64,000 bases of DNA from Mycobacterium sp. (GTDB taxonomy: Bacteria; Actinomycetota; Actinomycetes; Mycobacteriales; Mycobacteriaceae): the NCBI GenBank assembly GCA_003987775.1, contig RXJD01000005.1:58954-122953 (forward strand), in the 5' to 3' direction. The notes beneath the pieces are model-generated. The model made no database searches and had not been told where the DNA came from. It worked only from the letters and a program-made list of their open reading frames with translations. Positions 2,407-44,521 of the stretch are shown here, one piece after another. Position 1 is the first letter of the stretch. The number at the start of each line of letters is the position of its first letter. Both the position numbers and the translations under genes were made by a program.

Positions 2407-4343
2407 CCGCGTCCTGCCACGACGACGGGGGTGCGGTCGCCGCCCCGCCCGGCCTGTCCCGGACGGCGCTGATCGGCAGCCCCAACGCCGGCAAGACCAC
2501 CGTGTTCAACCAGCTCACCGGGATGAGGGCACGCACCGGCAACTACCCCGGTGTCACCGTCGCCCGCCGGGTAGGCACCGGGAAGTTCCGCAGCGAGGAC
2601 GAAACGACGACGTTCCTCGTCGAGGACGTCCCGGGGTGTTACAGCCTGCACCCCGTCAGCCCGGACGAACAGGTGGTCGCCGACCTGCTGCGCGGGGAAT
2701 TGCCTGGCATCACCGCACCGGATGCGCTCGCTGTGGTCGTCGATGTCACCGTCCTGGAGCGGTCGCTGTCGCTGGTGTCGCAGGTACTCGCACTGGGCAA
2801 GCCCACCCTGCTCATCCTCACCATGGGAGACGAACTTGCGGCCCGCGGTGGCCAGCTGGACACCGAAAAATTCGCCGCCGCGCTGGGCATCCCGGTGGTG
2901 AGCGTGATCGGCAGCCGCGGCAAGGGGTTCGAACCGCTACGGGCACTGCTGGCCGCGCCGCAGACCTGGCAGCGCGTCGCCATCCCGCCACCGTCCGACG
3001 ACGCCGAATACCAGAGCTGGATCGCCTCGATCCTCCATGCCGGCCGGTACCGGGCACCTGAGCCGGACCGCCGCAGCGCGCGGATCGACCGGGTGCTGTT
3101 GCACCCCGTGTGGGGTTCGTTGTTCTTCGTCGCGGTGATGTTCGCGTTCTTCCAGATCGTCTTCACCCTGGCAGCGCCGTTGCAGGACCTGATCGAGAAG
3201 TCGTTCAGCTGGCTGGGCACCCTGGTGGACGACCACATCAGCAACGGCGCGATCGCGGGACTGCTCGGCCACGGGGTGATCGGCGGAGTTGGCGCCGTCC
3301 TGGTCTTCATCCCGCAGATCGTGCTGATGTTCCTGCTGATCTCGCTGCTGGAAAACATCGGCTACATGACGCGCGCCGCGTTCCTGGTGGACCGCATCAT
3401 GGCGACCACCGGACTGGACGGCCGCGCCTTCGTGGCGATGCTGTCATCGCTGGCGTGCGCAGTGCCCGCCATCATGGCCACCCGCACCATTCCGTCGTCA
3501 CGAGACCGGCTCGCCACCTGCATGGCCGCGCCGTTGATGACATGTTCGGCCCGCCTGCCGGTGTACATCCTGCTGATCGGGATGCTGGTCAGTCCGCAGG
3601 ACAGGTGGGGGCCGGTCTCGATGCAGGGCGTGGTCATGTTCGGCATGTACCTGCTCGGCGGCGTCTCGGCGATGCTCACCGCCTGGCTGTTCAAATCGGT
3701 GGTGCTCGGCGGGGATCTGCTGCCGTTCTACATGGAGATGCCGCCCTACCGATTCCCGTCGCTCAAGTCGGTCGTGATGACCGTGTGGGACTCGGCAAAG
3801 GTGTTCCTGCGCAAGGCCGGAACCATCATCCTGGGCACTTCTGTCGTGTTGTGGTTTCTGCTCAACCTGCCGACGCGCACCGCGGAGACCGCCGGTATGG
3901 ACCAGGCCGCGGCTTCGGCCTACGTCGTCAACCATTCCTTCGCCGCCGGCCTGGGCAAGATTCTCGAACCGCTGTTCGCGCCGCTGGGTTTCGACTGGCG
4001 CGTCTGCGTCGGCCTGATCGGCGCGATGGCCGCCCGCGAAGTGTTCGTGGCCACGCTGGGGCAGATCTTCGCCACCGGCGAATCCGGCGACCTGGTCTCG
4101 GCCGCGCATTCGGCCGTCTTCACCTCCGGCCCGCATCACGGGGAGCTGGTGTTCACCGCGCCGACGATCATGGCGCTGCTCGTGTTCTTCGCCTACGCCC
4201 TGCAATGCATGTCGACGATCGCCACGCTGCGGCGCGAGACCAACTCGTGGCGCTGGCCGCTGGTGGCGTGGGGTTACATGTTCGTGCTCGCCTGGGTGGC
4301 GGCGTTCGCCGCCCGGCACATCACCATGTGGCTGACGGGTTGA
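2403..4343 (+). CDS. feoB: FeoB, ferrous iron permease
   Basis: Inner-membrane Fe(II) transporter of 646 residues with an N-terminal GTPase domain and a C-terminal permease. G1 is GSPNAGKTT (about residues 25-33), G2 is TGNYPGVTV, and G3 is DVPGCYS. The expected G4 NxxD appears as TMGD, so the usual Asn is Thr. Membrane signatures include SLLENIGYMTRAAFL, SLACAVPAIMATRTI, MTCSARLPVYI and GAMAAREVFVATL, the Gate-type segments of FeoB. I use the ATG at 2403 overlapping the feoA stop; an in-frame upstream start at 2355 lies within feoA and is less likely. It is followed 2 nt later by the NifU-like gene. Confidence 0.93.
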   Translation: MTASCHDDGGAVAAPPGLSRTALIGSPNAGKTTVFNQLTGMRARTGNYPGVTVARRVGTGKFRSEDETTTFLVEDVPGCYSLHPVSPDEQVVADLLRGELPGITAPDALAVVVDVTVLERSLSLVSQVLALGKPTLLILTMGDELAARGGQLDTEKFAAALGIPVVSVIGSRGKGFEPLRALLAAPQTWQRVAIPPPSDDAEYQSWIASILHAGRYRAPEPDRRSARIDRVLLHPVWGSLFFVAVMFAFFQIVFTLAAPLQDLIEKSFSWLGTLVDDHISNGAIAGLLGHGVIGGVGAVLVFIPQIVLMFLLISLLENIGYMTRAAFLVDRIMATTGLDGRAFVAMLSSLACAVPAIMATRTIPSSRDRLATCMAAPLMTCSARLPVYILLIGMLVSPQDRWGPVSMQGVVMFGMYLLGGVSAMLTAWLFKSVVLGGDLLPFYMEMPPYRFPSLKSVVMTVWDSAKVFLRKAGTIILGTSVVLWFLLNLPTRTAETAGMDQAAASAYVVNHSFAAGLGKILEPLFAPLGFDWRVCVGLIGAMAAREVFVATLGQIFATGESGDLVSAAHSAVFTSGPHHGELVFTAPTIMALLVFFAYALQCMSTIATLRRETNSWRWPLVAWGYMFVLAWVAAFAARHITMWLTG

Positions 4344-26518: not shown

Positions 26519-27040
26519 ATGTTCAGCATGTCAGTGTTCGTCAAGACCGGGTTGGCCGCGGTAGCGGCCATAGGGATTCCGTTGTGCGTGGCGCCGGTGG
26601 CGCACGCGGGTGAAGTCGCCTCCTGGAACGGTGAATACCTCGTCGTGCTCGGCGCCAACGCCAAATCGGGCACCAGCGTGGCAGCGGGCCAGCCCGAATT
26701 CGCCCACCGCTCCACCGTCTCCTTCACCTCCAGCTGCGCCGCGGGCGTCTGCGTCGCCACGGTCGACAATCCGCCGGTACCGAAGAACGAATCGATGCCC
26801 CGGACAATCGAATTCACCTGGAACGGCTCGCAATGGGTGCGCGAGATGACCTGGAAATGGGACTGCCTGCTGCCGGACGGCACCATCGAATACGACCCGG
26901 CCAAATCGATAACCGTCTACACCCCAGGGCAATACGGCATTCTCACCGGCGTCTTCCACACCGATATCGCCAGCGGCACCTGCGCGGGCAATGTCGATAT
27001 GCCGGTGTCGGCCAAGCCGATATCAGGGCCCGTCACCTAA
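26519..27040 (+). CDS. Small secreted protein (Rv2253-like)
   Basis: A 173-residue exported protein of unknown function. The N-terminus, MFSMSVFVKTGLAAVAAIGIPLCVAPVAHA, is a Sec signal peptide with an AHA cleavage site. The mature domain has four cysteines (SCAAGVC, WDC and GTC), which suggests two disulfides, and a beta-rich pattern. It follows the diacylglycerol kinase by 22 bp, matching Rv2253 after Rv2252. A 9-bp hairpin begins 20 nt after its stop, ending the conserved block before the acyltransferase island. Confidence 0.8.
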   Translation: MFSMSVFVKTGLAAVAAIGIPLCVAPVAHAGEVASWNGEYLVVLGANAKSGTSVAAGQPEFAHRSTVSFTSSCAAGVCVATVDNPPVPKNESMPRTIEFTWNGSQWVREMTWKWDCLLPDGTIEYDPAKSITVYTPGQYGILTGVFHTDIASGTCAGNVDMPVSAKPISGPVT

Positions 27041-27060
27041 GTGCCCGTCCGCGAGACGGC

Positions 27061-27084
27061 GTCGATCAGCACGCACTGATCGAC
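27061..27084. terminator. Hairpin after the secreted protein gene
   Basis: Perfect 9-bp arms GTCGATCAG (27061-27069) and CTGATCGAC (27076-27084) with loop CACGCA, 20 nt past the stop at 27040. There is no T-run. It probably ends the conserved operon. It lies in the 304-bp gap 27041-27344, which contains no convincing gene; the open frame from 27192 is an upstream extension of papA. Confidence 0.6.
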
Positions 27085-27264
27085 CATTTCGCGCACGTTC
27101 CCGCGACGTAATCCACGTCCGCCGCACCACTGCGTGAGCATAACGCGCAAAACCCTGCAATCGTCGTTTACTCCGGCTATCGACCACAACCGTGACTGCT
27201 CGCCGCCGAATTCCTAGGTTTGTGATCAACCGATTGGCAGGCGCGCTCCGCCCAACCACGCAGA

Positions 27265-27285
27265 GGATTTCCGCCGGCGAAATCC
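27265..27285. promoter_or_regulatory. Dyad upstream of the PapA-type gene
   Basis: Perfect 7-bp arms GGATTTC and GAAATCC around the 7-nt GC-rich spacer CGCCGGC, centred about 70 bp upstream of the PapA start at 27345. The position suits an operator or a structured 5' leader for the whole acyltransferase-mmpL island. No known regulator motif is recognised. The start itself has AAGGGAT upstream. Confidence 0.4.
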
Positions 27286-27344
27286 AGGCACCCCAGTGGT
27301 TTTGCCTGCCATACACGGCCGGCACACGCGAAAGGGATCGAGCG

Positions 27345-28811
27345 ATGGTAGGACTGGGCACGATCAACGAATGGCGACCGCCGCACGGGCTGGTCACCAC
27401 CTGGACGGCCACCCCGGCGGCACGCGCCGCGGCACGGACGGCGCCGCACAGCACTCTGGCTCCCAGTTACCAACGGGAGCAGCACCTTCGGTCGGCCCTG
27501 GCCGCTCGGGAAGCCGGCCACACCCTGCCCCGGTTGATGGTCGTGGCCTGGGACATCGCCGGCACCTGCGACATCGGCGCAATGACGGCCGCGATCAACA
27601 CCCATGTGCGCCGCCACGACAGCTACCACGACTGGTTCGAATTCGACGGTGCGGCAATCCTGCGCCGGCGCATCGAGAACCCCGATGTCATCGCCTTCCA
27701 CCCGGTCCAATTCGGCCGGATGGGCACCGAACAGATACGCAACCATGCGCTGACCAGCACCCCGGGCACGCTGGAGTGGGGCTGCATCACCTTCGGGGTC
27801 ATCCAGCACGCCGACTACTTCACCTTCTACACCAGCGTCGACCATCTCTACATCGACGGCATGTCGGCCGGACTGATCTTCTTCGATATCCATCTCTCCT
27901 ATGACGCGCTGACGCAGAACCCGGCGCAGCAACCGGTCACTCCGGAGATCGCCAGCTATCGGCGTTACGCGGCGCGGCAGCACGAGCGGATAGCGCGCCT
28001 GACGCTCACGTCGCCAGAGGTCAGGGAGTGGATCTCCTTCATGGAGGGCACCGGTGGACACTGGCCCCGTTTTCCGCTTCCGCTCGGGGACGTCGATGTC
28101 ACCACCACGGGCGACTTCCTGACGGTCGACCTGCTCGACGCCGCCGGGACGGAATCGTTCGACGCCGCCTGCCGGGCCGCCGGTGCACGCTTCAGTGGCG
28201 GTGTCCTGGCCTGTGCCGCGCAGGCCGAGCATGACCTGACCGGCGCCACGACCTTCTACGGATTCACCCCCTACGACACCCGTACGCCCGGCCTGGACAC
28301 TCTCACCGTCGGCTGGTTCGCCAGCCTGGTACCGATCAGTGTCTCCATCGGCTCCGGATCCTTCCCCCGGATGGCCCGCGCCGCGCAGGAATCGTTCGAC
28401 GCCGCCAAGCGTCTGGCCGGTGTCCCGTTCGACCGGGTACTGCAACTGGCGACGCCGGAACAGCTGGGAATCGTGCCCCCCGAGCGTTCGGAATCGATGG
28501 TGTCGTTCATCGACGTCCGCAAGCTACCCCTGGCGCCCTTGTTCGAACAAACGAACTTCGGCGCCTACGGCGACAATCTGTCACGCGGCGGGGTCAACGT
28601 CTGGATCACCCGTCATGCCGACAAGACCACCGCGACCATCTCCTTTCCGGATAACCCGGAGGCACGCACGTCGGTACGCCGCTACCTCTCGGCATTGGCC
28701 GGAGCCTTCGCACGCATCGTCGCCCCGGCTACCCCGCCGTGGCTGGAAGAGGTTGCCGAGCATGCGAACTCGGGGCAGGGCATTCCGGTCATCAGCAAGG
28801 GATCGGTGTGA
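27345..28811 (+). CDS. PapA-type acyltransferase, first gene of the lipid island
   Basis: A 488-residue polyketide-associated acyltransferase of the condensation-domain superfamily. The N-terminus (INEWRPPHGLVTTWTATPAA) and CDIGAMTAAINTHVRRHDSYHDWFEFD strongly resemble PapA1/PapA2/PapA3, which acylate trehalose in sulfolipid and DAT/PAT synthesis. The active-site motif is DHLYIDG with His167 and Asp171, so the first His of HHxxxDG is Asp. A C-terminal NFGAYG stands near the expected DFGWG element. I chose ATG 27345 because AAGGGAT precedes it and PapA homology begins there, although the frame is open from 27192. The stop overlaps the next gene (GTGA). Confidence 0.85.
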   Translation: MVGLGTINEWRPPHGLVTTWTATPAARAAARTAPHSTLAPSYQREQHLRSALAAREAGHTLPRLMVVAWDIAGTCDIGAMTAAINTHVRRHDSYHDWFEFDGAAILRRRIENPDVIAFHPVQFGRMGTEQIRNHALTSTPGTLEWGCITFGVIQHADYFTFYTSVDHLYIDGMSAGLIFFDIHLSYDALTQNPAQQPVTPEIASYRRYAARQHERIARLTLTSPEVREWISFMEGTGGHWPRFPLPLGDVDVTTTGDFLTVDLLDAAGTESFDAACRAAGARFSGGVLACAAQAEHDLTGATTFYGFTPYDTRTPGLDTLTVGWFASLVPISVSIGSGSFPRMARAAQESFDAAKRLAGVPFDRVLQLATPEQLGIVPPERSESMVSFIDVRKLPLAPLFEQTNFGAYGDNLSRGGVNVWITRHADKTTATISFPDNPEARTSVRRYLSALAGAFARIVAPATPPWLEEVAEHANSGQGIPVISKGSV

Positions 28812-30157
28812 GTACCGTGGGCACTGTCGTCGATCTGGTCGACCACACCTTCTTCCGCATCGAGCGGGCCGCCGAGGTCACCAACGTGATCCAGTGCGCC
28901 TGGGTGTATGACCGCCCCGTCGCCATCGACGGCCTGAGGCGGTTCCATCACCATCTGCAGCGCGGCAGACTGGCCCGCCGAATCGAGCGCTCGCCACTGC
29001 CGTTCGGGCGTCCCCGCTGGGTCTCCCCCTGGCAGCAGAACCAGCTGGAGATCGCCGAGGAGCGTTGTCCACGCGCCGATTTCGACACGTGGCTGGCCCG
29101 GCAAGCCGACACCCCGCTGGATGCCGAGCACGGACCCGGCTGGCACCTGGCGGTAGTGCCCTTCAGCGACGGCGGCGCGGGCGTGAGTCTGGTTGCGTCG
29201 CATTGCCTTACCGATGCCGTCGGGCTGTGCGAAGCGCTCGCGGATGCGGCGCAGGGCCGCGATCTCCCACGGCGCTGGCCGGCAGCCGGGTCCCGCCCGC
29301 GGCCGCAGGCCCTGCGCGAAGACGTCTGGCAAACCGTGCGTGACGTCCCGGCCATCGGTAAGGCAGCCGCCGTCGCGGCACAGTTCGCGTGGCGCAACCG
29401 GCGGGACGGCGGACAGGTCGCCACACCGACCGGACCATCTGCCCGCATCACCATCCCCACCGCAACCGCCTTCGTCGACGCCGACCAGTGGGACTCCCGC
29501 GCCGGCGATCTCGGCGGGACCAGCAACACGTTGCTGGTCGCGGTGGCCGCCCGCATGGCCCAGCGGATGGGACGGACCACCGCGGACGGTGCGGTCGCGG
29601 TGACGATGGCCGTCAGCCAACGCGCCCCCGGCGACACCCGCGCCAACGCCATCACCAATGTGGACTTCACGGTAAACCCCACGCACGCCGCGACGGATCT
29701 CCGCGAGATCCGCACTGCCACAAAGCAAGCGCTGATCCGGTGCGCGGAGCAGCCCGAACAGCGCTGGCGCCTGCTGCCGCTGGTTCCGGTGATACCCGAG
29801 CGACTGGGCCGACGATGGGTCGATGCCGCCGCCACCAGTGCGGTCAGCGTCGGGGCATCCAACGTCGGGATCATCGATCCGGCCGTGAACCGGCCGGACG
29901 GCACCGACGCCGACCACTTCGCGATGAGGTCGCTCACCGCGCATGCCACTACCGCGATGACGGACCGCTCCGGCGGGCTGCTGTCGGTGCTCTCGGGCCG
30001 CGTGCGGGGCACGGTCTTCGTCTCGGTCGTCTCCTATCAGCGGGACGGCCGCAACTCCAACAGCTTTGTCAACGGCCTTGTTTCGGATGTGCTGAGCGAA
30101 TTCGCGCTCAGCACGACGACCGGATGGCCGGTGCAGGAAAGGATCCTCGGCAGATGA
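28808..30157 (+). CDS. Tandem WS/DGAT-like acyltransferase paralogue A
   Basis: A 449-residue member of a four-copy local family. VVDLVDHTFFRIERA at the N-terminus resembles the 'LSPLDAMFL' start of WS/DGAT enzymes; LGGTSNTLLVAVAARMAQ resembles their NDVVLA region and GASNVGIID their C-terminal SN motif. The catalytic-type motif is SHCLTDA (His132, Asp136), so this copy has Ala where the others have Gly, and Ser for the first His of HHxxxDG. DTRANAITNVDF is conserved in all four. GTG overlaps the PapA stop; the stop overlaps paralogue B. Substrate unknown. Confidence 0.75.
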   Translation: MSTVGTVVDLVDHTFFRIERAAEVTNVIQCAWVYDRPVAIDGLRRFHHHLQRGRLARRIERSPLPFGRPRWVSPWQQNQLEIAEERCPRADFDTWLARQADTPLDAEHGPGWHLAVVPFSDGGAGVSLVASHCLTDAVGLCEALADAAQGRDLPRRWPAAGSRPRPQALREDVWQTVRDVPAIGKAAAVAAQFAWRNRRDGGQVATPTGPSARITIPTATAFVDADQWDSRAGDLGGTSNTLLVAVAARMAQRMGRTTADGAVAVTMAVSQRAPGDTRANAITNVDFTVNPTHAATDLREIRTATKQALIRCAEQPEQRWRLLPLVPVIPERLGRRWVDAAATSAVSVGASNVGIIDPAVNRPDGTDADHFAMRSLTAHATTAMTDRSGGLLSVLSGRVRGTVFVSVVSYQRDGRNSNSFVNGLVSDVLSEFALSTTTGWPVQERILGR

Positions 30158-31491
30158 GCAACGTCCTTGATCTGGTCGATCAGACCTTCTTTCGTCTCGA
30201 ACAAGCCGCCGGCGTCGGCCAGTGCGTGTGGGTGTACAACCGCCCGGTGGACATCGACGGGCTGCGCCGATTCCACCACCACCTGCTGCAGGGACGGCTG
30301 GCGCGCAGCATCGAACGCTCACCGTTGCCGTTCGGCCGCCACCGCTGGGTGTCTCAGCGCGGGCCGTCCGCACTGCAGATCGCTCACCAGCCCCGGCCCC
30401 GTGCGGAATTCGACGCCTGGCTGACTGAGCAGGTCAACACCCCGCTGGATGCCGAGTTCGGACCGGGTTGGCACCTTGCGGTGTTGCCGTTCACCGACGG
30501 CGGCACCGGGGTCAGCCTGGTGCTCAGCCATTGCCTCACCGACGGTGTCGGCGGCGCCATCGCGGTGGCCGAGGCGGCGTGCGGCCGGGAGCCGTCCGCG
30601 CACTGGCCTGCCGCCGGCTCCCGCACCCGCTGGCGTGCGCTGCGCGAAGACGCCCGGCAGACCGCCCGCGACATGCCCGCCGTCTGCCGGGCCCTCGCCG
30701 CCGCCGCCCGGTTCGCCCGGCAGAACCGCGGCCGGGCCACCCCGATCCTCCCGATCGCCGGCGCCGACGAACCGTACACCGCCCCCACCACAACGGTTTT
30801 CGTCGACGCCGGGGAATGGGAAGCTCGCGCACACGCGCTCGGCGGAACCAGCAACACGTTGTTCGCGGCGGTGGCGGTCAAGCTCGCACACCGGGTCGGA
30901 CGGGTGGCTGCCGACGGCACGGTCGCCGTGGCGATACCCGTCAACGAACGCACCGCCGATGACACCCGCGCCAACGCCGTCACGATGGTGAACATCACGG
31001 TGGACCCGGCCATCGCGGCCGCCGACCTGCGCGTCATCCGGGCCGCCGTCAAGCATGCGCTGACCGGCTACCGGGAACTGCCCGACGAGCGGCGGACACT
31101 GCTGCCCCTGATCCCCTGGCTGCCACGGCGGCTCACCCGCCGGCTGGTGGGGGTCGCCACCGGCGGCGCGACCAATGTCGTCGTCGCGTCCAACCTAGGC
31201 ACGGCGCCGCCGGCCCTGAGCCGGCCAGACGGCACCGACGCCGACTACGTCGCCGTGCGGTCGGTCTACCCGGATCTGACCGAGGCGATGCTGGGCCAGA
31301 TCGGCGGCCTGCTGTCGTTGCACGCGATGACGGTGGGCCGGCGGATCGCGATCTCGGTGCTCGGCTATCAACCGGGCCAGATCAACGCCAATACCGCTCT
31401 CCAACAGCATATTTCGTGCGTGCTGGACGAGTTTTCGCTCACCGCGACCACATCCGACGACCTGACCACCGCGAAAGGTTCCCGATCATGA
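30154..31491 (+). CDS. Tandem WS/DGAT-like acyltransferase paralogue B
   Basis: A 445-residue paralogue starting MSNVLDLVDQTFFRLE. The motif SHCLTDGVG gives His126 and Asp130 with the usual Gly131. Shared blocks are IERSPLPFGRHRWVS, GPGWHLAVLPFTDGG, GGTSNTLFAAVAVKLA, DTRANAVTMVNI and ASNLGTAPPALSRPDGTDADYVAVRS. No signal peptide or membrane helix is present, so it should act in the cytoplasm or at the inner membrane face. ATG overlaps A's stop and its own stop overlaps C (ATGA both times). Functional divergence from its neighbours is likely but untested. Confidence 0.78.
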   Translation: MSNVLDLVDQTFFRLEQAAGVGQCVWVYNRPVDIDGLRRFHHHLLQGRLARSIERSPLPFGRHRWVSQRGPSALQIAHQPRPRAEFDAWLTEQVNTPLDAEFGPGWHLAVLPFTDGGTGVSLVLSHCLTDGVGGAIAVAEAACGREPSAHWPAAGSRTRWRALREDARQTARDMPAVCRALAAAARFARQNRGRATPILPIAGADEPYTAPTTTVFVDAGEWEARAHALGGTSNTLFAAVAVKLAHRVGRVAADGTVAVAIPVNERTADDTRANAVTMVNITVDPAIAAADLRVIRAAVKHALTGYRELPDERRTLLPLIPWLPRRLTRRLVGVATGGATNVVVASNLGTAPPALSRPDGTDADYVAVRSVYPDLTEAMLGQIGGLLSLHAMTVGRRIAISVLGYQPGQINANTALQQHISCVLDEFSLTATTSDDLTTAKGSRS

Positions 31492-32822
31492 GCGACGTTC
31501 TGGACCTCTATGACCAAACCCAGTTTCTGGGCCAGCGCGCCACCGGAGCGACCAACCTCCTGCAGTGCTTCTGGCTCTACGACCGCGCCGTCGACCTCGA
31601 CGGGCTGCGACGATTCCACCGCCACCTGCAGCACGGCCCGCTGGCGCGCAGCGTCGAACGCTCACCCCTGCCGTTCGGCCGCCATCGCTGGGTCTCACCC
31701 CGCCACGACTGCGAGCTTGAGATCGCCGAAACACCCCGGCCGCGTGCCCTGTTCGAGTCCTGGCTGGCCGAGCAGGCCGACGTCGCGCTCGATGCCGAAC
31801 ACGGGCCGGGATGGCATCTCGCGGTGCTGCCCTTCACCGACGGCGGGGCCGGAGTGAGCCTGGTGGTCACGCACTGCCTCACCGATGGAGTCGGGCTGTG
31901 CACGGCGCTGGCGGACGCGGCCTCCGGGCGGCACAGCCCGTTCCGGTGGTCGGCCGCCGGTTCCCGACCCCGGTGGCACGCGCTGTACCAAGACGCGGGT
32001 CAGACCCTGCGCGACATCCCGGCCATCGGGCGCGCCGTCGTCGTCATCGCCAGAGCGGCTCGGCGGCAGCAAGATTCGGCCGCACCGCCACCGCAAGACA
32101 GATCCGACGAGCCCGTGACGCTCCCGACGGCGACGATCTTCGTCGACGCCGACCAGTGGGACGCCCGCGCCGCAGCGCTCGGCGGGACCCCCAACACGCT
32201 GCTCGCGGGCGTCGCGGCCCGCCTCGCCCAGCGGGTGGGCCGGCTGACCGCCGACGGCACGGTTGCCCTGACCGTGCCGGTGAACGAACGCACGACCGGC
32301 GATACCCGGGCCAACGCGATCACCAACGTCGACTTCGCGGTCGCGCCGACGACAACGGACCTGCGGCCGCTGCGGGCCGCGATCAAGGACGCGCTGACCA
32401 GCGCCGCCACGTCGAAAAACGAGCGCTGGCAACTGCTGCCCCTGGTTCCTTTGCTGCCGCAATGGCTGGTGCGCCGCTGGGTCGGTCTCTCGGCCAGCGG
32501 CGCGGCCAGCGTGATCGCCTCCAACCTCGGAGCGATCGATGCAGCCGCCCTGCGGCCGGACGGCACCGAGGCCGACCATTTCGCGATGAAGTCACTGGCG
32601 CCGGGGGTGACCTCGGGGATCATGGACCGATTGGGCGGGTTGCTGATGGTGCTGTCCGGCCGCACGGGCCGGCACGTCTTCGTCTCGGTGCTGGCCTACC
32701 AGCAGGGCCGCCCCAACTCCACGCCCGAACTGCGACACCATCTTTCGGATGTGCTGACCGACTTCTCGCTGACCGCCGCAGAACTGTCCCAGCTGGCGGA
32801 CCAGGAGGCGTCCCGGCGATGA
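31488..32822 (+). CDS. Tandem WS/DGAT-like acyltransferase paralogue C
   Basis: A 444-residue paralogue starting MSDVLDLYDQTQFLGQ. The motif THCLTDGVG places His129, Asp133 and Gly134 as in the other copies. It shares VERSPLPFGRHRWVSPR, GPGWHLAVLPFTDGGAGVSL, GGTPNTLLAGVAARLAQRVG, DTRANAITNVDFAV and ASNLGAIDAAALRPDGTEADHFAMKS. A, C and D share VGLC/VGIC after the motif, which B lacks. ATGA overlaps join it to B and D. The chain of 4-nt overlaps implies one mRNA and similar expression of all copies. Confidence 0.78.
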   Translation: MSDVLDLYDQTQFLGQRATGATNLLQCFWLYDRAVDLDGLRRFHRHLQHGPLARSVERSPLPFGRHRWVSPRHDCELEIAETPRPRALFESWLAEQADVALDAEHGPGWHLAVLPFTDGGAGVSLVVTHCLTDGVGLCTALADAASGRHSPFRWSAAGSRPRWHALYQDAGQTLRDIPAIGRAVVVIARAARRQQDSAAPPPQDRSDEPVTLPTATIFVDADQWDARAAALGGTPNTLLAGVAARLAQRVGRLTADGTVALTVPVNERTTGDTRANAITNVDFAVAPTTTDLRPLRAAIKDALTSAATSKNERWQLLPLVPLLPQWLVRRWVGLSASGAASVIASNLGAIDAAALRPDGTEADHFAMKSLAPGVTSGIMDRLGGLLMVLSGRTGRHVFVSVLAYQQGRPNSTPELRHHLSDVLTDFSLTAAELSQLADQEASRR

Positions 32823-34177
32823 GTAACGTCCTCGATCTGATGGACCAGGCCGCGTTTCTGGCCGAGCGGGCCACGGGCTCCACGAATGTGCTGCAGTGCG
32901 CCTGGCTCTACCAGGGCGGCGTCGATCTCGACGGTCTGCGCCGATTCCACCACCACCTGCAGCGGGGACGCCTCGCGCGGCGCATCGAACGCTCACCGCT
33001 ACCCTTCGGCCGCCACCGCTGGGTGTCCACACCCGCCCAGCCCGAGCTCGAGATCATCGAATCACCCCGTCCGCGTGAGCATTTCGACAGCTGGCTGGAC
33101 GAACAGGCGGACATCGCGCTGGACCCGGAACGCGGACCTGGCTGGCATTTGGCGGTGCTCCCGTTCACCGACGGTGGCGCTGGGGTGAGTTTTGTGACCA
33201 CGCACTGCCTCACCGATGGCGTCGGCATCTGCGCCGCATTGGCCGACGCCGCCTGCGGGCACGACGATCCGGTCAGCTGGCCGGCCGCCCGCTCGCGGCG
33301 GCGGTGGCGGGCACTTCGCGAGGACGCCCGCCAGACCCGGCGCGACCTGCCCGCCACCCGGCGGGCTCTGCGAGACGCCGCACGTCTGGCACGCGGCACC
33401 CACCGGACCGCCACCGCACGGCCGGCCCGGTCTCCGCGGTCACCCCAGCGCGTGGCGCTGGCGACGGCGACGGTGCATATCTATGGCGACTGGTGGGACG
33501 CTCGCGCCCGGGCGCTCGGCGGCACCGGCAACGCGCTGCTGGCGGCGGTCACCGCCCGGCTTGCCCGGCGGACCGGACGCGTTACCGACGCGGGCTGCGC
33601 CACCGTGGCGATACCGGTCAACGAGCGGGTCGACGGCGATACCCGGGCCAACGCCATCACGGCCGTCGACGTCGAGGTGGACTCCACCACGGTGACGACG
33701 GACCTGACCCCGGTCCGGGCCGCCATCAAGGACGCGCTGGTTCGCCGCGGCACCACGCCCGACGAGCGCTCGGCGCTGCTCCCTCTGACTCCGTGGGTGC
33801 CGCGGTGGGCGGTTCGACGGATGGTCGGCGTGGCCCTCGGGGGTGCGACGACCAGCGGATCCTCCAACCTCGGCGTGATCGACCCGGCGGTCAACCGGCC
33901 GGACGGCACCGACGCCGACTGCATGGCCATGAGGTCGCTGTATCCGCGGTCTACCGCGGCGACGATGCGCCCGACCGGCGGCCTGCTGGGGCTCGTGTCC
34001 GGGCGTGTCAACGGGCAGATTTTCCTCTCGGCGCTGTCCCATCAGCCCTGCGATCGCAACTCGAATGCCCAACTGCTCAAGGACATTTCGGAGGTTCTGC
34101 GGGAATTCGGCATCCCTTCCGCCGCGGGCTGGCCGGCGGCAGAGCACAATGCGCACAACCTCGCCAAACGTGGCTAA
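32819..34177 (+). CDS. Tandem WS/DGAT-like acyltransferase paralogue D
   Basis: The fourth copy, 452 residues, starting MSNVLDLMDQAAFLAE. The motif THCLTDGVG gives His129, Asp133 and Gly134. It is more Arg-rich in the middle (WRALREDARQTRRDLPATRRALRD) and has VHIYGDWWDARARALGGTGNALLAAVTARLAR in place of the VFVDADQW block. DTRANAITAVDVEV and SSNLGVIDPAVNRPDGTDADCMAMRS are retained. It ends the overlapping chain; 131 bp with a strong stem-loop separate it from mmpL. A role in successive acylation of one glycolipid core fits the gene cluster. Confidence 0.78.
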   Translation: MSNVLDLMDQAAFLAERATGSTNVLQCAWLYQGGVDLDGLRRFHHHLQRGRLARRIERSPLPFGRHRWVSTPAQPELEIIESPRPREHFDSWLDEQADIALDPERGPGWHLAVLPFTDGGAGVSFVTTHCLTDGVGICAALADAACGHDDPVSWPAARSRRRWRALREDARQTRRDLPATRRALRDAARLARGTHRTATARPARSPRSPQRVALATATVHIYGDWWDARARALGGTGNALLAAVTARLARRTGRVTDAGCATVAIPVNERVDGDTRANAITAVDVEVDSTTVTTDLTPVRAAIKDALVRRGTTPDERSALLPLTPWVPRWAVRRMVGVALGGATTSGSSNLGVIDPAVNRPDGTDADCMAMRSLYPRSTAATMRPTGGLLGLVSGRVNGQIFLSALSHQPCDRNSNAQLLKDISEVLREFGIPSAAGWPAAEHNAHNLAKRG

Positions 34178-34241
34178 GTCCGACTATCGCTGACAAGCGC
34201 GACCGGGCGCCGGGGCGACCGTAGCTTCGGTGTCAACACGA

Positions 34242-34278
34242 CGCCCGCCGGCAGGCTGTGCACCTGCCGGGGCGGGCG
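34242..34278 (+). terminator. Strong stem-loop between acyltransferase D and mmpL
   Basis: CGCCCGCCGGCAGG (34242-34255) pairs with CCTGCCGGGGCGGGCG (34263-34278) around loop CTGTGCA, with a 2-nt bulge. It lies in the 131-bp gap, 31 nt before the mmpL ATG and partly over an in-frame GTG at 34258. No T-run follows. It may terminate or attenuate read-through so that mmpL is made at a lower level, or protect the 3' end of the acyltransferase mRNA. Confidence 0.6.
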
Positions 34279-34308
34279 TGCCTACGCCTGACCGAGAAGG
34301 ACGTCACC

Positions 34309-37242
34309 ATGTTGAAACGCTTCGCCCCTGCGCGGACCTCGATGCCGATCGGCGTGTTCTCGGTGTTGGGACGGGTCGCCGTGCGCGCACCCTGGGTGGT
34401 CATCGCCGCCTGGATCGTCGTCGTCGCAGCGCTGGCCGCCACCCTGACACCGCTGACCACGGTGGTCGAGAGCCGGCCGCTGCAGCCGTTGCCGCCCAGC
34501 GCCATGGCGGCAGCCGATCAGATGGCCAAGGACTTCGGCGAGTCCGCACAGAACCTGCTGCTGGTCGTCCTCACCGACAACCGGGGGTTGCAACCCGGTG
34601 ACGAGGACACCTACCGGAAGCTGGCCGCCACGTTGCGCAGTCAGACCGCTGATGTGGCCAATGTGCAGGACGTCCTCACCACGCCCGCGTTGCGTGCCTT
34701 CATGGCCAGCGCCGACCACAAGGCCATCTATCTGGCCGTGAGCCTCAAGGCGCCGGCCGGGTCCCCGGAATCGTCGCAGGCCTACCAACGGATCGCGCAG
34801 ATCGCCGAACGCGCCACTGCCGGTTCGTCGCTGACCGCGGCGGTGACGGGGCAGGCGGCGATGGTCGGCGACATGTCGATCCTCACCACCCATGACATGC
34901 ACATCATCGAAATCGCTACGGCCATCCTGGTGCTGCTCATCCTGATGGCGATTTATCGGCGGCCGATGACCGTGCTGCTGCCGTTGCTCACCATCGGCAT
35001 CTCGGTGGCCACCTCCCAGGGCGTGGTGTCCGGCCTGGCTCAACTGGGGCTCGGGGTATCGGCGCTCACGGTCGCGCTGATGACGGCGATGATCGTGGGC
35101 GCCGGCACCGACTACGCCGTGTTCCTGATCAGCCGCTATCACGAGCACATCCGCGCCGGCAGCGATTCCGACCAGGCGGTGTGCAAGGCGCTGAGCTCGA
35201 TCGGCGAAGTCATCGCGGCGTCGGCGGCCACCGTCGCGGTCACCTTCCTGTGCATGGTGTTCACCCGGCTGCCCGCATTCACCAGTATCGGCCCGGCCCT
35301 TGCGGTTTCGATCGCGATCGCATTCTTCGCGGCCGTCACCCTGTTGCCCGCCATCCTGGTGCTCGCCGGCCGGCGCGGCTGGGTGGCCCCGCGCCCCGGG
35401 CTGACCGACCGGCTGTGGCGGCGCTCTGCCGTCGCGATCGTGCGCCGGCCGAAGGCCCACCTGGTGGTGAGCCTGGCCGTACTGCTCACGCTGGCCGGCT
35501 GCGCGGCCTTGCTGCGGCCCACCTTCAACGATCGCCTGCAGCTACCGCAGTCGGCGCCCAGCAACGTCGGCTTCACTACGATGGCGGCGCACTATTCGAT
35601 GAATGCGCTACTGCCGCAGTACATCTACGTGCGCTCACCCCATGACCTGCGGACCTCACGGGCGCTGGCCGACCTGGACCAGATGGCACAGCGGGTGTCC
35701 CAGCTGCCCGACATCGCCGCGGTGCGCGGCGTCACCCGGCCCGACGGTCAGCCGCTCGACCAGGCCAAGCTCAGCGTGCAGGCCGGTGCCGTGGGCTCCA
35801 AGCTCGCGGACGCCTCGACCCAGATCAGCGACAAGACCGACGACCTCGATGCGCTGACCAACGGGGCCGACCAACTGGCCGCGGCGCTCGCCCAGGTTCG
35901 CGACCAGATCCGCGGCGCCAGCGAGCCGGTGGCACAGGTGACCGGCACGCTCAACGGAGTGCAGCAGCAGCTCACCGGGGCCGCCAACCTCCTGGACCAT
36001 CTTCGCGGGCTCGCCAACGGAGCCGTCACAGCGGGCAACGTCGCCGGGAACCCGGTCCTGGATGCCCTGGCCAACAGTCCGTTCTGCGCCGACGATACGA
36101 CGTGCCGCTCGCGCCTGGTGCCGTCGGCGATGCAGAACCTGCAGGCCGCGGTGCAGAACGTGAGCGCGATGCTCGCGAGCGCGGACAACAGCCTGCGCAC
36201 CGCGAGCTCCGGAGCCGCCGGCATCACCCAGCGGATCGCACAACTGCAGGCGGCAGCCGACAAGCTGGCCGACGGCAGCCAGCAGCTGGCGCGCGGCGTG
36301 CGGACGCTCGTCGAGCAGACGAAGAAGATGGGCTCGGGCATGAATCAAGCGGCCGATCTGCTGCTGTCGATGAAACGTGATGCGGCACAACCCGGCATGG
36401 CCGGCATGTACATCCCGCCCACGGTGCTCACCTCGCAGGACTTCAAGAACGCCGCACGGATGTTCATCTCTCCCGACGGGCACTCGGTGCGCTACATGGT
36501 GGAGACGAAGCTGGACCCGTTCAGCCCGGCGGCGATGGATCAGGTGGCCTCCATCCTCGACACCGCGCGCAGTGCGCAGCCGAACACCTCGCTGGCGGAC
36601 GCGTCGATCTCGATGGTCGGCACCACCCCGATGTACAGCACGCTGCGCCAGTACTACGACCGGGACGTGACCCTGATCATCATCGCCACCCTGGTCGTGG
36701 TCTTCCTCATCCTGGTGCTGCTGCTGCGCGCCCTGGTGGCACCGCTGTATCTGATTGCCTCCGTGGTGATCTCGTACATGTCGGCGGTCGGACTGGGGGT
36801 GGTCTTCTTCCAGTTCGTGTTGCACCAGGCGATCTATTGGAACGTGCAGGCGACGGCGTTCATCGTGTTGGTCGCGGTGGGGGCGGACTACAACCTGCTG
36901 CTGATCACCCGCATCCGGGAAGAGGCGGAGGCCGGAATCCGCTCGGGCATCATCCGGGCGGTGCGCTCGACCGGTGGCGTGATCACCTCGGCGGGCATCA
37001 TCTTCGCCGCGTCGATGTTCGGGCTGATGTTCGCCAGCATGTCCACCCTGGCGCAGACCGGTTTCATCATCGGCGCGGGTCTGCTGGTCGACACGTTCGT
37101 CGTGCGCACCATCACGGTGCCGGCGATGGCGGCACTGGTCGGGCGGGCCAACTGGTGGCCTTCCCGGCGCGAGCAGACACAAACTCGCGTGGGAGCGGCT
37201 GCTCCAACGCGAGTTTGTGTCTGCTCGGCAAGCGGGGGCTAG
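34309..37242 (+). CDS. MmpL-family lipid transporter of the island
   Basis: A 977-residue RND-superfamily exporter of the MmpL type. It has TM1 near residues 30-45, a first periplasmic domain, TM2-6 (about 200-365), a second long periplasmic domain with a Gln/Ala-rich coiled-coil section (ISDKTDDLDALTNGADQLAAAL, then KLADGSQQLARGV), and TM8-12. The proton-relay Asp-Tyr pairs are GTDYAVFL (Asp268/Tyr269) and GADYNLLL (Asp860/Tyr861). AGAAGGAC precedes ATG 34309. Next to PapA-type genes it resembles the papA1-mmpL8 and papA3-mmpL10 pairs that build and export acyltrehaloses. Residues from about 955 to the end are encoded by an inserted palindrome. Confidence 0.9.
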   Translation: MLKRFAPARTSMPIGVFSVLGRVAVRAPWVVIAAWIVVVAALAATLTPLTTVVESRPLQPLPPSAMAAADQMAKDFGESAQNLLLVVLTDNRGLQPGDEDTYRKLAATLRSQTADVANVQDVLTTPALRAFMASADHKAIYLAVSLKAPAGSPESSQAYQRIAQIAERATAGSSLTAAVTGQAAMVGDMSILTTHDMHIIEIATAILVLLILMAIYRRPMTVLLPLLTIGISVATSQGVVSGLAQLGLGVSALTVALMTAMIVGAGTDYAVFLISRYHEHIRAGSDSDQAVCKALSSIGEVIAASAATVAVTFLCMVFTRLPAFTSIGPALAVSIAIAFFAAVTLLPAILVLAGRRGWVAPRPGLTDRLWRRSAVAIVRRPKAHLVVSLAVLLTLAGCAALLRPTFNDRLQLPQSAPSNVGFTTMAAHYSMNALLPQYIYVRSPHDLRTSRALADLDQMAQRVSQLPDIAAVRGVTRPDGQPLDQAKLSVQAGAVGSKLADASTQISDKTDDLDALTNGADQLAAALAQVRDQIRGASEPVAQVTGTLNGVQQQLTGAANLLDHLRGLANGAVTAGNVAGNPVLDALANSPFCADDTTCRSRLVPSAMQNLQAAVQNVSAMLASADNSLRTASSGAAGITQRIAQLQAAADKLADGSQQLARGVRTLVEQTKKMGSGMNQAADLLLSMKRDAAQPGMAGMYIPPTVLTSQDFKNAARMFISPDGHSVRYMVETKLDPFSPAAMDQVASILDTARSAQPNTSLADASISMVGTTPMYSTLRQYYDRDVTLIIIATLVVVFLILVLLLRALVAPLYLIASVVISYMSAVGLGVVFFQFVLHQAIYWNVQATAFIVLVAVGADYNLLLITRIREEAEAGIRSGIIRAVRSTGGVITSAGIIFAASMFGLMFASMSTLAQTGFIIGAGLLVDTFVVRTITVPAMAALVGRANWWPSRREQTQTRVGAAAPTRVCVCSASGG
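37171..37226. repeat. Long palindrome (copy 3) inside the 3' end of mmpL
   Basis: Perfect 20-nt arms GAGCAGACACAAACTCGCGT (37171-37190) and its complement (37207-37226), with an inner GGAGC/GCTCC stem. It lies wholly within the mmpL frame and codes for EQTQTRVGAAAPTRVCVCS; the stop follows at 37240. It also lies just beyond the convergent DUF3145 gene's stop, the usual place for a bidirectional terminator. It shares GCGAGCAGRCRCAAA with copies at 8449 and 20169. Confidence 0.85.
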
Positions 37243-39832: not shown

Positions 39833-40918
39833 ATGAGTCAGACAGTGCGCGGCGTCATTTCGCGGAGCAAAGGGCAACCCGTCGAGTTGGTCGACATCGT
39901 CATCCCCGACCCCGGACCGGGCGAGGCCGTCGTCGACATCACCGCCTGCGGCGTGTGCCACACCGACCTGACCTACCGCGAGGGCGGCATCAACGACGAG
40001 TACCCCTTCCTGCTCGGGCACGAGGCCGCCGGCACGGTCGAAGCGGTCGGTCCCGGCGTCACCCACGTCGAACCCGGTGACTTCGTGATCCTGAACTGGC
40101 GTGCGGTGTGCGGTCAGTGCCGGGCCTGCCGTAGAGGCCGGCCGCACCTGTGCTTCGACACCTTCAACGCCGAGCAGAAGATGACGCTGACCGACGGCAC
40201 CGAACTCACTCCCGCCCTTGGCATCGGAGCGTTCGCCGACAAGACATTGGTGGCGGCCGGGCAGTGCACCAAAGTCAATCCGGAAGCCGATCCGGCCGTC
40301 GTGGGCCTGCTCGGGTGCGGGGTGATGGCCGGCCTCGGCGCGGCGATCAACACCGGTGGCGTCACACGTGACGACACGGTTGCGGTGATCGGCTGCGGCG
40401 GGGTGGGTGACGCCGCGATCGCCGGCGCCGCGCTGGTCGGAGCGAAGAAGATCATCGCCGTCGACACCGACAACAAGAAATTGGAGTGGGCGCGCAAGTT
40501 CGGCGCCACCCACACAGTCAACGCCCGAGAGTTTGATGTCGTGGAGACCATCCAGGACCTCACCGGTGGCTTCGGGGTCGACGTCGTGGTGGACGCCGTC
40601 GGGCGGCCCGAGACCTGGAAGCAGGCCTTCTACGCCCGCGACCTCGCCGGGACCGTGGTGCTGGTGGGGGTGCCGACCCCGGACATGCGCCTGGACATGC
40701 CGTTGGTGGACTTCTTCTCCCGCGGCGGCTCGCTCAAGTCGTCGTGGTACGGCGACTGCCTGCCCGAGCGCGACTTCCCCACCCTGGTCGACCTCTACCT
40801 GCAGGGCCGGCTGCCGCTGGAGAAGTTTGTCTCCGAGCGAATCGGGCTAGACGGCATCGAGGAGGCGTTTCACAAGATGCATGACGGCGAGGTATTACGT
40901 TCGGTGGTGATTCTCTGA
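39833..40918 (+). CDS. mscR: S-nitrosomycothiol reductase / mycothiol-dependent formaldehyde dehydrogenase MscR
   Basis: A 361-residue zinc alcohol dehydrogenase, the length of M. tuberculosis Rv2259. Catalytic zinc ligands are Cys42 (CGVCHTD) and His63 (LLGHEAAG); structural zinc is held by Cys93, Cys96, Cys99 and Cys107 ([15 protein letters not shown]). The NAD site is [10 protein letters not shown]. It reduces S-nitrosomycothiol and oxidises S-hydroxymethyl-mycothiol, protecting the cytosol from NO and formaldehyde. I use ATG 39833; the frame is open further upstream but overlaps the divergent gene. It is followed by an MBL hydrolase with a TGATG overlap. Confidence 0.93.
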
Positions 40919-43407: not shown

Positions 43408-44521
43408 CCGGCAGCCCAAGGTCCGCCTGCCCGAATCAAGCGTCGTGGTGCGGCCGGAACCGATGGACTCCGCGACCTACACCCAGTCGTCGCGTCTGCA
43501 GGCGGCGGGACTGCTGCCGGCCGTCGCGCTGTTCGAACAGGCGGCGCAGCAGGTTCCGCTGCCCAAACCTCCGCAACCGGTCGTCATCGCCGATTACGGT
43601 GCGGCCACAGGCCACAACTCGCTGCGGCCCATGGCCACCGCGGTCGACGTGTTGCGCGCACGCACCCGCCACGACCACGCCATCCTGGTGGTGCACACCG
43701 ACGTGCCGGAGAACGACTTCACCGCCCTGTTCAACACGCTGTCCGACGACCCGGACAGTTACCTCAACAACGACACGGCCAGCTTCACCTCGGCCATCGG
43801 CCGGTCCTTCTATCAGCAGATCCTGCCCACCGGCACCGTCAACCTCGGGTGGTCGTCCTGGGCGATCCAATGGCTGAGCCGCGTCCCCGAAGGTGCGCCG
43901 GAAGTCGCCGACCATGTGCAGATCGCCTACAGCAGCAGCGCCGAAGCGCGGCGCGCATACCAACACCAGTCCGCGCTGGACTGGAATGACTTCGTCGCGT
44001 TCCGGGGCCGGGAGCTGTGCCCCGGCGGCCGGTTGGTGGTGCTCACCATGGCCCTCGACGAAGACGGCGAATTCGGTTATCGACCGCTGAACGAGGCTTT
44101 GATGGCGACGCTGGAGGAGCTTGCCGAACAGGGTCTGCTGCGCCGGGAAGAGATGCGGCGCATGGTGATTCCCGTCGTCGCCCGCACCGAGAAGGACTTC
44201 CGCGCCCCGTTCGCACCGCGCGGCTGGTTCGAGGGCCTGACGATCGAGCATCTCGAGATGTTCAATGCCGACGACCGGTTCTGGGCGAGGTTCCAAAAGG
44301 ATTCAGACGCAGAGGCTTTCGGCGCGCAGTGGGCGGCGTTCGCCCGGGCCGCCCTGTTTCCGACGCTGCGGGCAGGGTTGAGCGGCGGATTCAACGATCC
44401 GCGGGGGACGGACTTCGTCGAGCGGCTCGAAGCCGGTGTGGCCGAGCGGCTGGCCAAGGCACCCGAGCCCATGCGGATTCCGCTCGCGTCCCTGGTGCTG
44501 GCCAAGCGGGATTCGCAGTAA
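43382..44521 (+). CDS. SABATH-like carboxyl methyltransferase
   Basis: A 379-residue SAM-dependent methyltransferase related to the SABATH (salicylate/jasmonate carboxyl methyltransferase) family. [18 protein letters not shown] is the SAM-binding motif I in its SABATH form, [16 protein letters not shown] follows, and the middle holds the [24 protein letters not shown] block typical of that family (compare the plant 'SSYSLMWLS'). The start is uncertain: GTG 43382 overlaps the SDR by 26 bp, ATG 43463 is the alternative. It probably acts with the SDR on a small carboxylic acid, possibly a volatile ester product; this is inference. Confidence 0.75.

Follow-up and report, generated by a model that had tools for sequence, protein, structure and literature searches.

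Mycobacterial surface glycolipids influence host recognition, phage infection and the type of colony formed. The papA-mmpL lipid loci known so far include PKS and FadD genes of their own. The sulfolipid and DAT/PAT loci of M. tuberculosis combine PapA1/2/3 and MmpL8/MmpL10 with Pks2 or Pks3/4, FadD21/23 and Chp1/2; for DAT, the excerpted text of PMC4183827 describes cytosolic acylation by PapA3 followed by MmpL10-dependent export to the surface. The trehalose polyphleate (TPP) locus is given as pks, papA3, mmpL10, fadD23 and PE in the available portion of PMC10465359. LOS loci are described from M. smegmatis (MSMEG_4727-4737 and 4741) and from M. marinum, there with MmpL12 (PMC12507525, in extract). 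Extracts of PMC8125055, PMC8440910 and PMC10245118 identify MSMEG_4727 as the LOS PKS, MSMEG_4728 as a Pap protein and MSMEG_4741 as an mmpL, and link MSMEG_4731 to polymethyl-branched fatty acids. In the excerpted text of PMC11139207, deletion of the block MSMEG_4728-4732 restored phage sensitivity to an lsr2 mutant; the single deletions reported there are of 4728, 4731, 4733, 4734 and 4737, with neither 4729 nor 4730 among them.

The locus described here lies in a 64,000-nucleotide stretch of Mycobacterium sp. DNA (contig RXJD01000005.1, positions 58,954 to 122,953), henceforth the window, and consists of a papA gene, four paralogous genes for HxxxD proteins, here termed X, and an mmpL. Like the sulfolipid and DAT/PAT loci it has an MmpL and a PapA of the same subfamily (PapA2); unlike them it has no PKS, FadD or Chp-type acyltransferase, and the four X proteins are present instead. 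With the TPP locus it shares papA and mmpL, but it is without pks, fadD23 and PE, and the five genes named in the extract for that locus include no X. LOS-type loci resemble it in having X adjoining papA, in the order PKS-papA-X-X-FAAL, whereas the island is without PKS, FAAL and glycosyltransferases and has PapA, X and MmpL proteins from clades other than theirs. Thus neither the PKS and FadD that accompany papA and mmpL in sulfolipid, DAT/PAT and TPP loci, nor the PKS, FAAL and glycosyltransferases that do so in LOS loci, are found in the island, a PKS and FAAL occurring instead on contig C88 of the same genome; because it lacks their PKS and FadD, we do not count the island among the sulfolipid, DAT/PAT, TPP or LOS loci. 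Its parts are of known kinds (PapA, MmpL, HxxxD fold), and it is filed here as a variant of the PapA-MmpL lipid loci. Within the loci found, no counterpart appears for the PapA-Xn-MmpL combination, for X as an undefined family, or for an ordered and portable array of this kind; among the matches listed, no description of the papA-X array or of the X family was found in the open-licence literature.

Gene content and setting of the block

The features of the block, in window coordinates, are as follows.

papA, 27345..28811, plus strand: predicted PapA1/2/3-type acyltransferase, 488 aa, HLYID motif at residue 167
X1, 28808..30157, plus strand: HxxxD acyltransferase-like protein, 449 aa, HCLTD motif, 4-nt overlap
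X2, 30154..31491, plus strand: HxxxD acyltransferase-like protein, 445 aa, HCLTD motif, 4-nt overlap
X3, 31488..32822, plus strand: HxxxD acyltransferase-like protein, 444 aa, modelled with AlphaFold2
X4, 32819..34177, plus strand: HxxxD acyltransferase-like protein, 452 aa, HCLTD motif, 4-nt overlap
mmpL, 34309..37242, plus strand: MmpL transporter, 977 aa from the ATG at 34309
Inserted island, 27041..37169, plus strand: 10,129 bp, missing from the same site in relatives
Host inverted repeat, 37170..37229, no strand assigned: terminator-like, at the right junction and common to the empty site

The papA, the four X paralogues (about 445 aa) and the mmpL form six plus-strand open reading frames spanning 27345-37242, none with an internal stop. 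The coordinates of these frames bear out the account given in an earlier note on this DNA, of six consecutive plus-strand genes with the first five joined by 4-nt overlaps; the four overlaps read GTGA once and then ATGA three times. RBS-like purine-rich stretches precede all six starts. The mmpL begins 131 nt downstream of the end of X4, with an alternative GTG start at 34258 that would give 994 aa. X3 is 59, 56 and 59% identical to X1, X2 and X4, respectively, and papA and X1-X4 all contain the HxxxD motif.

With PKS and FAAL proteins from relatives as queries, no modular PKS or FAAL was matched among the called genes of the window or in the preceding 19 kb of the contig. Besides papA, X and mmpL, the only matches to these queries were two weak ketosynthase matches of 87 and 75 bits, to type II synthases lying at 16-18.6 kb and read as KasA/KasB, and one of 22 bits to an alcohol dehydrogenase at 39833. 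The island itself contains no sugar-synthesis or glycosyltransferase gene. The flanking backbone reads, with Pfam assignments for part of it, as an aceE, fabD-acpM-kasA-kasB-accD6, DAGK-like and Rv2258c-like region, judged against the gene order of M. tuberculosis.

The PapA and MmpL proteins

The best solved relative of the island PapA is M. tuberculosis PapA2, a trehalose-2-sulfate acyltransferase of solved structure (6aef), with 406 bits and E 2e-120 over residues 4-458 and with the HLYID motif aligned to HLCVD of PapA2; Pfam Condensation scores 45 bits. Near full-length similarity and the HxxxD motif together place the protein, as far as its sequence goes, in the PapA1/2/3 type, and the earlier note was right to call it PapA1/2/3-like.

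The MmpL matches Pfam MMPL (PF03176) with 560.3 bits and two MMPL stretches, and covers profile positions 1-910 of 910 of NCBIfam TIGR00833, although its 846.8 bits lie below the cut-off of 874.7. MmpL4 and MmpL5 are the nearest solved structures, and the nearest relatives in the window genome (49-51% identity) are MmpLs on contigs C77, C88 and C32, of which that on C77 adjoins a papA and a PKS and that on C88 lies in a LOS-like locus. In quick trees with SH-aLRT support only, as were all our X, papA and mmpL trees, the window copies of papA and mmpL pair with those of the relative G238 with full support, inside starred sets of island copies, and the island PapA and MmpL cluster with island copies from elsewhere, apart from their C77 and C88 counterparts. 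The mmpL tree also joins the C88 MmpL to that of locus L076 by branch lengths of 0.005 and 0.022; judged by the C88 MmpL alone, the window genome would be close to M. gordonae.

X proteins as a branch of the HxxxD acyltransferases

An alignment of X relatives was reduced from 186 domains to 125 by dropping those with fewer than 400 profile positions and rows of more than 88% identity (in alignment A2, row L013 was omitted and the window's own rows took the place of those of L001). H129xxxD133, in X3 numbering, is invariant in 125 of the 125, as are, among others, W29, D102, D169, R268 and D272. The AlphaFold2 model of X3 has a mean pLDDT of 94.0, and Foldseek matched it to AzeD (E 5e-19) and PapA5 (1q9j, 7e-14), within a set comprising condensation and heterocyclization domains, the plant acyltransferase HCT and, at rank 19, the chain-release condensation domain of the enacyloxin PKS. 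The TM-scores, about 0.45-0.6, and the rmsd values, mostly 7-10 A, suggest that the lobes of X3 are set differently from those of the matched structures. With both a two-lobed fold in the model and a conserved HxxxD motif, the X proteins can be placed in the superfamily of condensation and HxxxD CoA-dependent acyltransferase folds, and fold and motif together point to a distinct branch of the HxxxD acyltransferases. The earlier note had taken the paralogues for acyltransferases of this type; fold and motif agree with it, and no non-acyltransferase family emerged.

Searches against PapA, WS/DGAT and condensation models, which that note had proposed, returned papA as PapA2-like and X as weakly similar to WS/DGAT, with no Pfam family for X1-X4 and no match of PF03007 to any window X at E<=1. 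The wax ester/triacylglycerol synthase model TIGR02946 matched X1 (4e-6) and X4 (5e-5) over most of their length and X2 and X3 not at all. At E<=0.01, TIGR02946 matched 70 of 99 X relatives and PF03007 36 of 99. The motif of WS/DGAT enzymes is HHxxxDG, whereas the window X proteins read S/T-H-C-L-T-D-G/A, with a single histidine; the X proteins differ from WS/DGAT (TIGR02946, PF03007) in motif as well as in gene partners, score far below the TIGR02946 cut-off, and, being under the cut-offs, were rejected as true WS/DGAT. Assignment as NRPS condensation domains was likewise rejected: a whole-genome search with Pfam Condensation gave 33 matches, papA included, but none of the six X proteins of that genome, though the fold is shared.

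The block as a discrete insertion

In the relative G006 the site is empty, window positions 27040 and 37170 aligning 7 positions apart with 6 bases between, and G238 shows the same core site empty with the same junction (27038 and 37170 aligned 9 apart). The island is missing here also from G010, G007, G023, G029 and G018, some of which have other sequence in its place, giving seven relatives read in total. G238 does carry the island at another place, where window 27127-37160 aligns with 83.7% identity over 10,094 columns and with nearly the same ends; since the neighbouring core DNA of the two genomes is 88-89% identical, the island is more diverged than the core. On the right, window 37170..37229 gives direct and reverse-complement matches to G006 at 4238-4300, and because the junction falls at this terminator-like hairpin the last ~23 codons of mmpL are host sequence. 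The island has a GC content of 69.2%, against 67.2% for the remainder of the window. Present or absent as one unit, the block is a discrete insertion and not part of the local backbone.

Carriage of the island on a plasmid was rejected, since megablast against 72,556 plasmid records gave no match and protein searches of plasmids found distant relatives only (3 records for X3, 10 for PapA). In G018 a different insert of about 8 kb with a 1,668-residue ORF occupies the same core site (L117:3578-11816), so this site may attract insertions.

Distribution and array architecture

Among 198 genomes of the genus, strict limits gave 47 with a close X protein (a count that takes in the window genome) and 33 with a close papA; 26 of the 198 had a match to the island MmpL at E<=1e-300, and 22 of the 29 MmpL matches showed at least 66% identity. 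As at most 8 X, 8 papA and 4 MmpL candidates were scored per genome, these figures may miss copies. Counted by eye from coordinates, X stood beside papA in 36 of 40 close papA matches (exceptions in G047, G150, G163 and G167) and directly beside mmpL on the same strand in 20 of the 22 more similar MmpL matches (66% identity or higher), the exceptions being G199, with X on another contig, and G105, with mmpL divergent beside papA-X.

We collected 99 loci, a set in which some contigs, to judge by their lengths, appear twice (L031/L111, L034/L131, L038/L132, L047/L112) and split copies raise the number of X (L121 is entered with five, L029 with six, L130 with two). Their arrays range over papA-X5-mmpL, papA-X4-mmpL, papA-X2-mmpL, papA-X-mmpL, X-mmpL and papA-X with no mmpL in the stretch read, so that the genus contains repeated papA-Xn-mmpL arrays with n from 1 to 5. 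Among those with five copies are L030 and L038 (both M. colombiense), L031, L034 and L035, together with L029, where one copy is split; four copies are present in the window, L047 and G238 (first X split). One X is split into two frames in G238 (L121:12695-14049), IS-836 (L029:11253-12767) and G143 (L130:8183-9520). Plain papA-X runs make up 19 of the 99 loci, with no mmpL in the stretch read save L127, where a divergent mmpL adjoins; since many papA-X units are of this kind, the island-type MmpL does not seem obligatory for the enzymes. The gene order is thus found in other species, with split copies in few, which answers the earlier note's question of its conservation. Because it recurs in many other records the papA-Xn-mmpL order is not due to chance, and the same order in many independent records led us to reject an artefact of a single assembly.

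Elsewhere in the window genome, on contig C11, a solo X (L026:5005-6378) stands where G006 has X-mmpL (L109:9880-14119), with matching sizes of the flanking genes; the mmpL appears to have been lost at this site.

X lineages and selection

In a tree of 67 X proteins, window X1 clusters with X proteins in first position in four other arrays (5 rows, support 100). The group of window X2 (10 rows, 98) contains the second X of the five-copy arrays, the X that opens two-copy arrays and L047's third X; that of X4 (4 rows, 99) contains the X at the end of the five-copy arrays. Support is weaker (92, not starred) for the group of X3, in which the fourth X of L030 and that of L035 are joined by L034's third and L047's second. 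In L047 the order is permuted, its second and third X grouping with window X3 and X2 and its last X with the second X of two-copy arrays, not with window X4. The window and the five-copy arrays agree in their slots, the order of which is mostly, not strictly, kept, and the X duplications are, on this tree, older than their spread over these species.

Between the window and G238, dN/dS is 0.19 for papA, 0.22 for X2, 0.20 for X3, 0.25 for X4 and 0.14 for mmpL, X1 being left out because it is split in G238. Such values indicate that the five genes compared are under purifying selection.

X proteins in PKS-containing and LOS-type loci

The earlier note's statement that the block has neither PKS nor FadD holds for the island, as the absence of modular PKS and FAAL matches in the window and 19 kb upstream on the contig attests, but it does not extend to the X family, which elsewhere adjoins PKS, PapA and FAAL and is even fused to PKS. 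In 19 of the 99 loci a PKS is followed on the same strand by papA-X-X, and in 13 of these directly by FAAL; they belong to a part of the family about 38-47% identical to X3, and several of the species concerned are rapid growers. In seven loci (L021-L025, L078, L079) a very large PKS or FAAL-PKS protein ends in an X domain at its C-terminus, the L023 fusion having the architecture FAAL-ACP-KS-AT-ACP-X. A Pfam search of two such fusions gave no family over the X part. This position suggests that the PKS-fused X is a chain-releasing transferase domain; in the tree these X proteins form a clade of their own, apart from the island X.

The locus on C88 of the window genome (L104, L105) comprises papA, PKS, two GT28, a methyltransferase, MmpL, a divergent FAAL, X, two GT2, an SfLAP protein and an epimerase. 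On C77 (L103), mmpL and papA are divergent from a large PKS, with a PE-PPE protein adjoining, an arrangement that is DAT/PAT- or TPP-like.

Genome G115 contains the exact site of the MSMEG_4728 forward primer, whose sequence is printed in the excerpted text of PMC10245118; the reverse primer was not found in the G115 stretches read. Here the order is PKS-PapA-X-X-FAAL, with an MmpL about 8 kb beyond the FAAL, matching the M. smegmatis LOS island as far as it is described in the extracts of PMC11139207, PMC8125055 and PMC8440910. By gene order, the two X genes of the LOS locus would be MSMEG_4729 and MSMEG_4730. Outside the genus, a Tsukamurella tyrosinosolvens plasmid (NZ_LR134451; L137, 49-60 kb) carries an X relative near a GT28, two PapA_C acyltransferases and a condensation protein, the cluster sitting among acc and sulfurtransferase genes. 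To judge from the genes around them, the wider contexts of the X family are those of glycolipids or polyketide esters.

Proposed function and alternative explanations

We consider it probable (about 0.7) that the island works as a self-contained cassette for assembling a polyacylated glycolipid and exporting it. The observations behind this reading are the gene order, the tight coupling of the genes, the fold and intact motif, the long-separate X lineages, the purifying selection seen for five of its six genes, the presence or absence of the block as a whole and the repeated linkage of the X family to glycolipid loci. PapA would begin by acylating a polar core, for which trehalose or a trehalose-based sugar is the likeliest candidate; the similarity of PapA and the partner loci point towards trehalose, to which we would give even odds. 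The four X proteins, each with its own conserved specificity, would then add further acyl groups, with the HxxxD histidine as base and with acyl-CoA or carrier-bound chains from ordinary fatty acid synthesis, or from a PKS elsewhere in the cell, as donors, and the MmpL would move the acylated product outward. Such a scheme parallels DAT assembly, with several dedicated X transferases replacing the PKS/FadD supply and the Chp enzyme. It is also the stepwise acylation and export that the earlier note had envisaged, which stands as the best reading, the paralogues belonging to no non-acyltransferase family and the gene order not being peculiar to this strain; from these data we infer the core sugar, acyl donors, order of steps and export substrate, that is, the chemistry.

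It is possible, if on balance unlikely, that the X proteins act as chain-release transferases on polyketides made by PKSs elsewhere, giving a polyketide ester like those of the LOS, DAT/PAT and TPP loci in place of a simple fatty ester. The fusions of X to the C-terminus of PKS or FAAL-PKS proteins, the enacyloxin chain-release domain among the fold matches and 35 ketosynthase rows in the window genome, weak and partial ones included, are in keeping with this, yet no PKS or FAAL accompanies the island or is labelled in the flanks read of papA-Xn-mmpL loci, LOS-type loci apart, and the PKS-fused X proteins lie in a clade away from those of the island. Given that the genome holds the C77 and C88 loci, with their own relatives of papA and mmpL, the island might instead merely modify the lipids of the LOS-type locus on C88 or of the PapA/PKS/MmpL locus on C77, adding acyl variety and no new lipid class; this we think doubtful, as the island brings its own PapA and MmpL, which group with island copies.

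That the X proteins are storage-lipid synthases, making wax esters or triacylglycerol beside an unrelated transporter, is very improbable: the many weak WS/DGAT matches across the family would fit, but the window X proteins reach at most 25.9 bits against the TIGR02946 cut-off of 309.95, and X is repeatedly linked to papA, PKS, GT and mmpL genes. Hardly any weight can be given to the array being a decaying set of redundant duplicates. The split copies in G238, IS-836 and G143 and the solo X on C11 are what decay would leave, whereas in the window all six genes are open, five with dN/dS of 0.14-0.25, separate X lineages are kept across species and HxxxD is invariant.

If the island is indeed a glycolipid cassette, a recurring unit free of PKS and FadD would point to surface lipids not yet isolated, and X would be an acyltransferase family for which no Pfam or NCBIfam model scored above its cut-off here. 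As X occurs in LOS-type loci and at the ends of PKSs, work on one X protein could assign a step in several pathways. A bolder and tentative proposal, which we regard as rather less than probable, is that of a portable, PKS-free module in which the number and kind of X genes (n = 1 to 5) determine how many acyl chains a surface glycolipid carries and where, species swapping surface lipid types by gaining, losing or relocating modules. It predicts that the number of acyl chains follows the number of X genes; were it true, surface lipids would be swapped in a manner comparable to O-antigen loci in other bacteria, an unrecognised source of surface variation, for example in phage reception.

Genes adjoining the island and related loci

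None of the window's flanking genes is consistently shared with 26 related loci (10 kb flanks), matches being to one or two loci each and the strongest of 59%, to L047; shared flanking genes were accordingly rejected as a clue to the substrate. Rejected as a functional clue, too, was the papA-X of L133 adjoining acc-fadE-echA, which we read as an insertion beside core catabolic genes. A histidine kinase and response regulator pair (~561 and 231 aa), checked by Pfam in L108 and judged by gene size in the other loci, adjoins the mmpL end in L107, L108, L109, L111, L124, L125, L126, L129, L131 and L132. At 43463-44521 the window encodes a SAM-dependent carboxyl methyltransferase of the PF03492 family, which is known mainly from plants.
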